Shown here in pieces: positions 6,813 to 17,542 of a stretch of 64,000 nucleotides of DNA. This stretch comes from Terriglobia bacterium (GTDB lineage: Bacteria; Acidobacteriota; Terriglobia; UBA7540), in NCBI GenBank assembly GCA_030041095.1, contig JASHON010000018.1, positions 1 through 64,000 on the forward strand. The letters run 5' to 3'. A program made the position numbers and the translations under genes. The notes under the pieces were generated by a model that saw only the letters and a program-made list of their open reading frames with translations, was not told the origin of the DNA and did no database searches. Positions within the stretch are counted from its first letter, which is position 1. Each line of letters opens with the position of its first letter.

Positions 6813-7250
6813 CTTACGCGCCATACGCTGATCACTGAATTGGCGGAAAGCGGCGCAGGTAACGAAATGATGATGGACATAGCCGGCCATGTATCCCGCC
6901 GGACGCTGAGGCACTATACAGGCTGCGGAAAAACTCTTTCGGGAGTTGACGTAGCGCCGGCTTCCAGCCGGCAACTCCCTTCAATTCAACGGAGGCCGGC
7001 AAGATGCCGGCGCCACGTTCGCGGCGTCGTCGAGCTTTTCCGTAGCCTGTATAGCCACATCCGAATGCAGCCCAAGCGGGAAGCTCTCGAGGCCCTCTTA
7101 CAGAAACAGCGAGCCACGGCAAACAAGGAAGAAGCGGAGCAAGCGCAGCCGTGCCTACCAATTGTACCGGTTTCTACGGCTATAGAAGGAGAGCCCTTCC
7201 AAAATCCCGTACATAGCCTGCAAGAACCGAGGCAAAATTGGTGTCAGTAG
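6813..7250 (+). pseudogene. Tyrosine recombinase C-terminal remnant, split by a MITE
   Basis: The frame reads RHTLITELAESGAGNEMMMD, then IAGHVSRRTLRHY, the box-II part of a tyrosine recombinase (R-H-x-L, GHVS, HY). It breaks at 6919 and resumes after 7050 as YSHIRMQPKREALEALLQK. If the insert is removed, the junction codons read H-Y-S-H-I-R-M, so the catalytic Tyr region was intact before insertion. The N-terminal two thirds of the gene are missing; only ThuA coding sequence lies upstream. It lies just outside the left att repeat, so it may belong to an earlier element at the same hot spot. Confidence 0.75.
6919..7049. mobile_element. 131-bp MITE-like insertion with terminal inverted repeats
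   Basis: The left end CAGGCTGCGGAAAAACTC and the reverse complement of the right end CAGGCTACGGAAAAGCTC match at 16 of 18 positions. Both flanks read TATA (6915-6918 and 7050-7053), fitting a TA or TATA target duplication of the kind made by IS630/Tc1-type transposases. Removing the element plus one flank restores a continuous recombinase frame. There is no coding capacity. The inside holds GC-rich hairpin arms (GCCGGCTTCCAGCCGGC and GCCGGCAAGATGCCGGC). Non-autonomous mobilisation is an inference. Confidence 0.8.
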
Positions 7251-7272
7251 GTTTCTAAGCTCCTGAAAAGAA

Positions 7273-7317
7273 ATGGCTCCTCGGGCAGGACCCGAACCTT
7301 CAACCATTCGGTTAACA
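7273..7317. repeat. Left att-like repeat: displaced 3' half of tRNA-Asn
   Basis: These 45 bases match 42 of 45 positions of 17467-17511, the 3' half (CCA end, acceptor, T arm, anticodon loop) of the intact minus-strand tRNA-Asn. Identity ends at the anticodon loop (TGTTAACCG), a common crossover point for tyrosine recombinases in tRNA genes. Beyond it the sequence no longer folds as a tRNA. Confidence 0.85.
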
Positions 7318-13052: not shown

Positions 13053-14588
13053 ATGACAAGCCCACTACTCAAACATCGCGAGGGGATCCGTAAACTCGCC
13101 AAATCCCTTCGGAAAACCGACATATATCACTGGCTTGTCGAGTTTGGCTACTTTCCTGAAAACTACGTCCTGCCGCCGTGTTTCCGCGTAGCAAGAAGAC
13201 CGACCAAACCAAAGTTGCTCTTTGTGGTAACAAAGAACGGAAAATTTTCTCCAGACCGGACCCAGTGCGTGAATGTTCATTTTCCGAAGACGGCTCTCAC
13301 AGACAGGACCTTTGGTGTTATTCACCCCAAGATACACAATGACATTGCTTACCATCTCTCTACAAATTGGAGCACGGTCGTTCGAGCGATGTTCCCCTCT
13401 GATAGCCAAGTTTGCTCCTACGGCTTTCCAATTCCAATTGACGCTAAATCTCCTGCCCGGATCGGCTATTTACGAAGTGGTTGGATGATTTACGAATACG
13501 TCGGCCAAATGGAGGGAGACGTGACAGCCGCTTAGTACAGCTATACTCACATTGTCAGGACCGACATTAAGAATTTCTATCCGTCGATCCACACTCACAG
13601 TATCGCGTGGGCAATTCATGGTAAGGACTACGTACGGAGACCTGCGAACCGGAACAACCCCAGGTTTCTGGGTAACCGGCTGGACAGACTGTTCCAGAAT
13701 GCCAACGACGGGTGCACAAACGGGGTTCCAATTGGACCTGTAGTTTCAGACATGATAGCGGAGATTGTTGCCTCGGCCGCGGACCGGCTGTTCTCCACGC
13801 GGCTAGCCAGGAAAAAGATCGACTGCGAGGTGGTTCGGTTTAAGGACGACTATCGCATTCTCACAAAATCTGAAGAGGCCGCCAAGTCGGCGGTGAAGCT
13901 ACTCTAAGCTTCCCTAAAAGAGTACAACCTAGAGCTGAGCGATGAGAAGAGTACGATCTCGGCCCTTCCTGACGGATTGTTCCGCGAGTGGGTTTCTATG
14001 TATCACGCCGCAAACCCAAAGAGGAAAAACCAATATAACTGGAAGGATTTTAGGGAATTATATCTGTCGGTGCTTCGAATTGACAAAGCCTGTCCGGGTA
14101 GCGGGGTCATCGACCGATTCTTAGCGGACCTCGTGACAAAAGGGGGAAAGCTTCGGGTCACTGTGGGAAAATTCAACCTCCAAAAAGTAATCAGCATGCT
14201 GCTCATGCTAGGGACGCTCCGCCCGAAGGCTTTTCCAAAGATTGTGGCGATTCTTGAGGCGATTCTTTCGAGCCGCTTCGGTACACTTCATCGAAAGCTC
14301 ATAATCGATCATCTTGAATCCTACGTCAGTTCATTATGCGGCGAGGAAGAAAGAAACAAGTATCTCATCTCATGGATCGGGTACTTCTTGGTGAGTAATG
14401 GCTTGAAGAATAAGCTCTCACGGAATCCACAGCTGAAAGACACAATCACACGGTCGGTGTTTAGCAACAGGGGACTACTGTTTAAGGGATGCAAGGAGTT
14501 TAAGCTTTTCGTGGGCTGCCGGAGCGCCAGAAGGAAAATGTCGATGCCAGAGCACCTTGATGTCTTTCACCCTCCCAAAACCGCTTAG
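13053..14588 (+). pseudogene. Defence-type reverse transcriptase, interrupted by two in-frame stop codons
   Basis: One continuous frame of 511 sense or stop codons encodes an unknown-group (UG/DRT-like) reverse transcriptase. A TAG at 13533-13535 and a TAA at 13905-13907 interrupt it without any frameshift. The segment between them carries motif A (RTDIKNFYPSI, Asp at 13563), motif B (GVPIGPVVSD) and motif C (RFKDDY, Asp pair at 13845-13850). The N-terminal 160 codons resemble the FP/IPH entry region of such enzymes. The C-terminal 200 codons are alpha-helical. Both stops would arise from Gln codons by single C-to-T changes. Neither the N-terminal peptide nor any restart could contain motif A with motif C, so the gene is probably inactive. 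Which DRT class it belongs to cannot be told by eye. Confidence 0.8.
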
Positions 14589-14793: not shown

Positions 14794-15450
14794 CTAGAGG
14801 GCATACCCGAAGTCGTGTGACTGCTGATGGGCAGGTTGTCTGGGCTGGGTCTGAACCTGCTCTTGATGGTGTTCCATGGCGGCGCGCTTTGAGATTTTGC
14901 GGGTTAGCTCAATTCCCACGCCTCGTGAGTTGTCGGTGCAAATCTTGGCTTCGTAGCGGGCGCGGGAGATTGAGACGTACGCGAAGCGGCTGTTCAAAAG
15001 CTTCTTGTGGGCTTGGCGCGTATCAACGTTCACCAGGACACGGTCCGCCGTTAGGCCCTGGCTGCTGTGGCTGGTGACTGCGTAGCCGTAATCAAGATGC
15101 GGATGCTTTCGCATTGAGAATTCCACCGTTCGGCTCGAATCGAGTTGGATCGAGAGCATTCTGTTGGATCGAAGCTCCTTGATTCCGCCGAGGTCTCGAC
15201 TGGCAATCCGTTTGTCCCGATAAGGGGCCGTGAACTGGATGTGGTCGCCAACTGAAATACTGCGCTCGACCTCCTGGTATACGGTCACCCCTTGCAGCCG
15301 GCGGGGATCGTAAGTCACTGTCTTGGCGTTGGCCCTCTTGACTGTCACGAGATTTATGCGGCGATCGGAATCGACCACGCGAACATATTCCCCCGCCTTG
15401 AGCTTCAGGACGTGGCTGCCTTTCGTGAAGCGTACCACGTGGCCGCCCGG
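14794..15450 (-). pseudogene. MobF/TraA-type conjugative relaxase, C-terminal helicase fragment
   Basis: On the minus strand the translation from about 15440 reads VVRFTKGSHVLKLKAGEYVR, later LDYGYAVTSHSSQGLTADRV and SRFAYVSISRARYEAKI, ending at TAG 14794-14796. These are the final SF1 helicase motifs (the TSHSSQG/VALSRA-like pair) of MobF relaxases such as TraA/TraI. The relaxase and Walker A parts are missing; upstream the sequence switches to an unrelated antitoxin-like fragment on the other strand. It is a relic of the conjugative machinery of the island. Confidence 0.75.
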
Positions 15451-15495
15451 CACCGCCCGGCCCATTGCCGGTCTGCACCCGTCATTTCTTGCCGT

Positions 15496-15759
15496 GGCAC
15501 CAGCACCCTCATGATCGTCCTGCACCGTGCGTATATACCGGTTGAGGACACGCAAGAAATTCCCGGAGTGCGCTGCACGACTGCGCTGCGCACCATGATT
15601 GATCTCGCGGGGGAACAGCGCACGGACACAACGCTCCTTCGGCAGGCCGTTCGGGAGGCCCTGGCGCGCGGGCTGGTACGCCGCGATCAATTAGAGCGCG
15701 AAGACCTGCCCCCACTGCTCCGTCGCGAATTTCGAGTACTCGCTAGCGCTCATGCCTGA
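15496..15759 (+). pseudogene. AbiEi-like antitoxin / DUF559-associated protein, C-terminal fragment
   Basis: From about 15505 the frame reads MIVLHRAYIPVEDTQEIPGV, then CTTALRTMIDLAGE and REALARGLVRRDQLERED. This matches the pattern HRA-x-IP-x-D plus TT-x-x-RT-x-x-DLA plus EAL-x-RGLV, typical of the middle of AbiEi-like antitoxin proteins. The N-terminal helix-turn-helix half is missing and is replaced by sequence antisense to the relaxase fragment. No AbiEii-like nucleotidyltransferase partner is present. Confidence 0.55.
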
Positions 15760-15866: not shown

Positions 15867-16316
15867 ATGAGGGCGTACGTTGTGGACACGGATGTGCTCA
15901 TCGCAGCATTTCGAAGCGATGCAGGCGCATCTCGGTGGCTGTTGGAGGCGGCGCGAGCTCGCCGGTTTCAGTTGCTGTTGTCGGTGCCGCTGATGCTGGA
16001 ATACGAGTCCGTTCTCACCCGCACGGAGCATTTAGCTGCTTCCGGAGCGACTCGAGAAGACGTATCTGCGGTTCTCGACGAATTGGTTTTGGTATGCGAA
16101 AGAGTTGAGCTGGCGGTCCGCCTGCGTCCGATGCTGCCCGATCCGAACGACGAGATGGTTTTGGAGACCGCGATCAACGGAAGGGCCGATGCGATAATTA
16201 CATTCAATGAACGGCATTTTCGAAGCGTTGCGGGTCATTTCGGGTGTTCAGTATTGCTGCCCGTCGAGGCCGTCCGCCAACTGGTGCGTGATGACGAGGA
16301 GGAAGCGAATCAATGA
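15867..16316 (+). CDS. PIN-domain ribonuclease toxin (COG1569/VapC-like)
   Basis: A 149-aa PIN-fold protein. Acidic positions fit the active site: VVDTDVLIAAF at the N-terminus, LEYESVLTR in the middle, LPDPNDEMVLETA and ADAIITFNERHF near the end. It belongs to the 'putative toxin component, PIN family' group and should cleave RNA when free of its antitoxin. The next gene starts inside its stop codon (ATGA at 16313-16316). There is no ribosome site ahead of the ATG, consistent with leaderless translation from the promoter just upstream. Confidence 0.85.
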   Translation: MRAYVVDTDVLIAAFRSDAGASRWLLEAARARRFQLLLSVPLMLEYESVLTRTEHLAASGATREDVSAVLDELVLVCERVELAVRLRPMLPDPNDEMVLETAINGRADAIITFNERHFRSVAGHFGCSVLLPVEAVRQLVRDDEEEANQ

Positions 16317-16597
16317 GGCGAAGCAATTTTGCGCTGCGAGTACCGCCCACGCTATTGGCCGAAGCGCGTAAAGCGGCCGAATCCGAAGGCGTAGCGTTGA
16401 ACCAGCTCATTACCCTTGCGCTTGCGGAAAAGGTCTCTGCCATGCGGACCGAAGAATATTTTGAGGAGCGTGCACGCCGAGCGAATTCAACTAAGGTCAA
16501 CCGCATTCTCAGCCGTGTGGGCAAGGGTAATCCTCCTGTCGAGGGTGACGAACTTCCTCCGGACCTAATTCGGAGGAAAAAACAGAGCAAGAAGTGA
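16313..16597 (+). CDS. Ribbon-helix-helix antitoxin of the PIN toxin
   Basis: A 94-aa protein overlapping the PIN toxin by 4 bases. The N-terminal part, FALRVPPTLLAEARKAAESE and then GVALNQLITLALAEK, is a ribbon-helix-helix DNA-binding pattern like that of HicB-type and VapB-type antitoxins (beta strand FALRVPP, two helices, the VALNQLI turn). The C-terminus is charged and probably wraps the toxin. It is expected to neutralise the PIN toxin and bind the palindrome at 15838-15853. Confidence 0.8.
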   Translation: MRRSNFALRVPPTLLAEARKAAESEGVALNQLITLALAEKVSAMRTEEYFEERARRANSTKVNRILSRVGKGNPPVEGDELPPDLIRRKKQSKK

Positions 16598-16936: not shown

Positions 16937-17149
16937 ATGGTGTTTCACGTGACGCTTACCAGGGCCGAGGATGGATGGGTTGTGGCCGAGTGCCCAGCTC
17001 TTCCCGGCTGCGTCTCTCAGGGCAAGGACGAGCAAGAAGCGCTCAGCAACATCAAGGAAGCTATTTCCGGCTGGCTTTGGGCTGAAGACCAGAAAGCCCT
17101 ATCCGAATCTTCGAGAGCCAACCAACCCGAGATTCTCGTCTCTGTCTAA
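16937..17149 (+). CDS. hicB: HicB-family antitoxin (short form)
   Basis: A 70-aa protein with the HicB partial RNase-H-like fold: FHVTLTRAEDGWVVAECPAL, then PGCVSQGKDEQEALSNIKEA. It is the short form without a C-terminal DNA-binding domain. It should bind and block the HicA mRNA interferase encoded 5 bases downstream. The antitoxin-first order is one of the two known arrangements. Confidence 0.85.
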   Translation: MVFHVTLTRAEDGWVVAECPALPGCVSQGKDEQEALSNIKEAISGWLWAEDQKALSESSRANQPEILVSV

Positions 17150-17154
17150 TCCAG

Positions 17155-17382
17155 GTGGCCCGGCTTGCCAACATTTCCGGCAAGGAAGTTGTGAAGGCTT
17201 TCGAGAAGGCCGGGTGGCAAGTTGCCGGGCAGGTAGGGAGCCACGTGATTATGACGAAGCCCGGCTCCCGTGCCAATCTCTCCATTCCGCAACACAAAGA
17301 ACTTTCTATCGGCACATTGCGCGCCCTCATTCGGCACGCCGGACTAACGGTAGATCAATTTCTGATCCTCACAGAATCCTGA
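17155..17382 (+). CDS. hicA: HicA-family mRNA interferase toxin
   Basis: A 75-aa double-stranded-RNA-binding-like protein starting at GTG. It has SGKEVVKAFEKAGWQVAGQ, the catalytic-His motif GSHVIM, and SIPQHKELSIGTLRALIRHA, all typical of HicA. It should cleave mRNA when freed from HicB. The pair sits 85 bases from the right att site, a typical place for an addiction module that stabilises an integrated element. Confidence 0.85.
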   Translation: MARLANISGKEVVKAFEKAGWQVAGQVGSHVIMTKPGSRANLSIPQHKELSIGTLRALIRHAGLTVDQFLILTES

Positions 17383-17466
17383 ACGTGGAAAAGCACCAAA
17401 TTTTGAGGGTGAGGTACACCAAATTCCCGGTAAGAAAATCGCTCTCACGCCAACTCATTGAAAATA

Positions 17467-17511
17467 ATGGCTCCTCGGGCAGGACTCGAACCTGCAACCC
17501 TTCGGTTAACA
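17467..17511. repeat. Right att-like repeat within tRNA-Asn
   Basis: Counterpart of 7273-7317 with 3 differences in 45 bases (positions 20, 28 and 34 of the repeat). It covers the CCA end, T arm and anticodon loop of the functional tRNA. Confidence 0.85.
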
Positions 17512-17542
17512 GCCGAATGCTCTACCATTGAGCTACCGAGGA
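17468..17542 (-). tRNA. tRNA-Asn (anticodon GTT), CCA encoded
   Basis: The reverse strand reads TCCTCGG at the 5' end and CCGAGGAG-CCA at the 3' end (7-bp acceptor stem). The anticodon stem-loop CGGCTGTTAACCG gives GTT, and the T arm contains GGTTCGAGTCC. All arms pair, so the gene is intact although it carries the right att repeat. The 3' end points into the island. Confidence 0.95.

Follow-up and report, generated by a model that had tools for sequence, protein, structure and literature searches.

The locus and its tRNA-Asn island

An island of 10.2 kb, located at a tRNA-Asn gene, holds both an intact helicase-nuclease gene and a reverse transcriptase (RT) frame that is interrupted by two stop codons. 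The window, i.e. the whole stretch of DNA that was analysed, comprises 64,000 nucleotides; the features of interest are collected in Table 1. The island is bounded by 58-nt direct repeats, which correspond to the 3' end of the tRNA gene and are found at both ends. An intact integrase is missing; only a short, probable fragment of such an enzyme was detected, and a conjugative relaxase-helicase is likewise represented by a mere fragment. Two toxin-antitoxin pairs are also located in this segment. Altogether, the island looks old, grounded and decaying.

Table 1. Features of the island and of the interrupted RT gene (positions refer to the window)
Feature	Position	Strand	Basis and remarks
Att-like direct repeat, left island end, copy of the tRNA-Asn 3' part	7260..7317	+	58 nt, 86% identical to 17454-17511
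Helicase-nuclease (SF1 helicase, MTES_1575-type nuclease domain), intact, 1731 aa	7731..12926	+	Pfam AAA_11, AAA_12, MTES_1575; PADLOC; NCBIfam
UG14-type reverse transcriptase pseudogene	13053..14588	+	511 codons and a terminal stop; interrupted twice; PADLOC RT_UG14
Internal stop 1, TAG, codon 161	13533..13535	+	Ala in 11/11 orthologues
Segment between the stops, 123 codons, containing RT motifs A, B, C	13536..13904	+	First in-frame start ATG 13752, after motif A
Internal stop 2, TAA, codon 285	13905..13907	+	Gln in 10/11 orthologues, Ile in one
Debris of a conjugative relaxase-helicase, TraI/TraA type (C-terminal part)	14794..15690	-	NCBIfam TraI, only model positions 1277-1461 of 1752
Toxin-antitoxin pair: PIN-domain toxin, HicB-family-fold antitoxin	15867..16597	+	In island
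Debris, probably the N-terminal part of a tyrosine integrase, 107 aa	16594..16917	+	phrog_1 integrase, E 5e-4
HicB-like antitoxin and HicA toxin pair	16937..17382	+	In island
Att-like direct repeat, right island end, overlapping the tRNA-Asn 3' end	17454..17511	+	Repeat comparison
tRNA-Asn(gtt), integration site	17468..17542	-	ARAGORN

Two further observations concern the surroundings. A genome of the same genus contains a tRNA-Asn site (L051, G030:C274) where the att-like repeat is present in several copies, together with a region related to that of the PIN toxin; this marks the site as a recurrent integration spot. At positions 6914-7056 the window contains a 143-bp element, of which dozens of copies (91-97% identical) occur in the genome; in the same-genus genome G030, only one close copy was found. 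A single long hairpin (-83.5 kcal/mol, z -9.4) is formed by this MITE- or REP-like element, which has multiplied in this lineage.

A UG14 reverse transcriptase frame with two internal stops

Translation of the RT frame gave exactly two internal stops ahead of the terminal TAG at 14586, whereas the other two forward frames contain 22 and 26 stops across the same region. The earlier note had described the frame as continuous except for these two codons and free of frameshifts; both statements are borne out. With the stops read as X, the frame matched the PADLOC model RT_UG14 with 670 bits (E 5e-202) over model positions 3-492 of 493, i.e. better than any other UG group; the second-best PADLOC model, Drt6, reached 220 bits. 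Pfam RVT_1 matches as well. Because the UG14 match spans nearly the full model, the frame represents one gene and is not a product of chance, and the proposed defence-type RT can be assigned to the UG14 family. The catalytic motifs A (TDIKNFYPS), B (TNGVPIGPVVSD) and C (RFKDDY) were all read in frame between the two stops, exactly where the same note had placed them. Thus, the gene shares with the UG14 enzymes of the UG/Abi family the full-length match and all motifs; it differs from them in its two internal stops, as all orthologues are intact. It is a pseudogene of the UG14 family and not a working member. The score of the frame with Drt4 was 176 bits, compared to an NCBIfam cut-off of 450.

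For comparison, 11 orthologues were compiled: L012, whose genome belongs to the same phylum, and L021-L030, from a GTDB-based collection. Searching this contig collection with a single protein gave nothing; an alignment of two sequences retrieved 11 loci, 10 of which are full-length UG14 genes. The source organisms include Bacteroidota, Chitinibacter (C. tainanensis for L025), Ferrimonas, an uncultured Pseudomonadota and a Verrucomicrobia MAG; the identity of the orthologues to the RT frame is 35-63%, with 57-63% for the closest relatives. Among the viral contigs scanned no relative of the RT was found, and the phage and plasmid records searched contained only remote RTs. All 11 orthologous frames are uninterrupted and none is split into separate genes.

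An alignment with these sequences indicates which residues the two stops replaced. Codon 161 is an alanine codon (GCN) in all cases; codon 285 is CAA or CAG (Gln) in 10 of 11 and encodes isoleucine once. It had been proposed that both stops could have arisen from glutamine codons by single C-to-T changes, which is possible for either codon as such. For the second stop the alignment agrees, and the TAA appears to be a simple change from Gln. For the first one it does not: starting from any Ala codon, TAG is reached by two changes or more, or else by way of an intermediate residue absent from the sample, so that the history is not that of one recent hit.

In order to estimate the age of the lesions, divergence at the codon positions was compared between the RT frame and its closest relatives. 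The ratio of third-position divergence to the mean of first and second positions is about 2.0-2.9 on either side of the stops; in all three segments of the gene, including those beyond the stops, it resembles the ratio of intact orthologues at similar distance. The terminal branch leading to the RT is of ordinary length (0.30, compared to 0.24 for L025 and 0.33 for L027). Since post-stop sequence diverges as in intact UG14 genes, the branch is ordinary and no frameshift has occurred, inactivation looks recent, as had been suggested, a dating that we regard as modestly certain. Where the other 11 sequences all agree, the RT departs from the invariant column six times (the stop plus five residues), whereas most intact orthologues show 0-2 departures of this kind. 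These extra departures may be a weak sign of relaxed constraint; the five residue exchanges could equally be ordinary divergence. A switched-off phase, the other state considered for the gene, does not fit the lesions, which are substitutions and neither an invertible segment nor a repeat tract.

The structure of an intact orthologue, L025, was predicted instead of that of the interrupted gene (mean pLDDT 77). The nearest solved folds are UG15 (9l9s), DRT4 (9vdo), AbiP2 (7r08), DRT6 (9wy8) and AbiK (7z0z), with identities of about 16-24% and TM values of about 0.6, which correspond to a moderate domain match. UG15/DRT4-type chains and AbiK were also found by a sequence profile search. In the model, a C-terminal domain of helical, HEAT-like alpha-repeats comes after the RT domain (helices at 313-449), and the best folds all belong to class 1 of the UG/Abi enzymes. 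Members of this class are described as oligomeric enzymes whose DNA synthesis requires no nucleic acid template and is protein-primed (PMC13275509, PMC13174585). Judging from this likeness in fold and sequence, an intact UG14 enzyme would most likely resemble DRT4, AbiP2 and AbiK, that is, act as an oligomer performing untemplated DNA synthesis during phage infection. In the open-access literature searched, we found neither a paper treating UG14 RTs nor a report on nonsense-interrupted defence RTs. Mapped onto the L025 model, stop 1 lies in the helix that immediately precedes motif A, so that the product ending there has no active site; stop 2 lies in the helix after motif C, and a product ending at this point is devoid of the C-terminal helical domain.

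Interpretation of the interrupted gene

We consider it highly probable that the UG14 gene of this decaying tRNA-Asn island, which belongs to a class-1-like defence RT, is a nonsense pseudogene. According to this model, a complete UG14 gene would have been carried on a mobile island that integrated at the tRNA-Asn gene; the island would have lost its mobility genes, and two nonsense substitutions without a frameshift would have inactivated the RT. Translation would end after 160 residues, ahead of motif A, so that no polymerase could be made. RT function has presumably been lost in the cell; the assembly contains no second RVT_1 match that could replace the enzyme. Since all related copies that were compared are intact, the locus is regarded as an ordinary decayed gene of a known family rather than a new regulated or composite system.

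The only rival carrying noticeable weight, although an improbable one, is an artefact of sequencing or assembly: the organism would carry an uninterrupted gene, with consensus errors or a mixture of strains giving rise to the stops. The genome is a draft assembly of 4.88 Mb in 207 contigs (95.5% complete, 3.7% contamination), and the DNA flanking the stops resembles a gene under selection, both of which are compatible with such errors. However, two separate errors would be required, and if the original residue was Ala, two or more bases of a single codon would have to be wrong in one of these cases. Moreover, none of the 35 ABC-ATPase matches of the same assembly contains a stop, and the neighbouring gene of 1731 codons is clean.

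It is very unlikely that translation restarts on the RT pieces to give separate polypeptides, or that helicase-nuclease and RT form one composite system. With respect to a restart, the C-terminal part is covered by a TTG-started frame of 203 residues, but the first start of the middle segment (13752) lies past motif A and lacks a clear Shine-Dalgarno sequence, and no orthologue has separate genes for these pieces. Re-initiation was rejected, as the middle segment contains no in-frame start before motif A.

A composite system had been suggested because of the adjacency of the two genes, which are indeed arranged head-to-tail with a gap of 126 bp; in addition, non-homologous helicases adjoin UG14 in four loci. 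Against this stands the separate occurrence of the two genes in every other genome examined. No UG14 match was found in the examined flanking DNA of 15 helicase homologues, and the helicase of the window is absent from all 11 UG14 orthologue loci, whose flanks measure between less than 1 kb and 9 kb. For a helicase copy in a genome of the same family (G035), which is 89% identical at the protein level, DNA similarity stops at the helicase stop codon and is followed by unrelated DNA (about 706 bases beyond the codon compared). The helicase-nuclease is therefore an independent neighbour and not part of an RT system. It shares the combination of an SF1 helicase and an MTES_1575 nuclease domain with PDC-S37, ProA and Hhe; this similarity is distant, and the scores are far below the NCBIfam curated cut-offs for ProA and Hhe.

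Least probable of all is controlled readthrough or suppression, by which stops kept on purpose would allow rare passage of both TAG and TAA, e.g. during phage infection, and thus a few full-length molecules of a toxic defence polymerase: the absence of a frameshift and the conservation persisting downstream of both stops would suit this proposal of the earlier note, but none of the 42 tRNA genes read has a UAG- or UAA-reading anticodon (43 matches in the genome, one cut off at a contig end), neither stop occurs in any orthologue, losses multiply with two stops in series, and the UAA of stop 2 is followed by G. UAA followed by G is an efficient terminator. An altered genetic code was rejected on the basis of the stop-free ABC-ATPase matches.

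The nonsense pseudogene adds one more documented UG14 locus. It presents a defence RT that was apparently inactivated only a short time ago, in an island that retains mere remnants of its mobility genes; this agrees with the general view that defence genes are rapidly gained and lost, and it points to no new mechanism. For studies of UG14 function, the 11 intact orthologues are better starting points.

Helicases beside other UG14 genes

In two loci (L026, 8980-12617; L028, 1877-5541), UG14 is followed by a conserved UvrD-type helicase of 700 residues, the genes overlapping or being separated by at most 10 bp. These two helicases are 62% identical to each other, and their first residues look like a RelE-type toxin. 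Another UvrD-type helicase lies 217 bp downstream of UG14 in L021 (2141-3982), and in L022 a ResIII-type protein is encoded upstream. These non-homologous helicases resemble the usual neighbours found in defence islands; at most, there could be a partner in the L026/L028 subclade. A UvrD-type helicase is possibly a UG14 partner in part of the family; it is absent from the window, and the UvrD- and ResIII-type neighbours elsewhere do not make the pair described here a recurrent system.

A homologue of the helicase-nuclease itself (L034, G036:C180; 37% identical, from a genome of the same family) contains in-frame TAG codons at 658-660 and 2764-2766 and no frameshift. In this defence-type gene, too, nonsense codons are the only interruptions.
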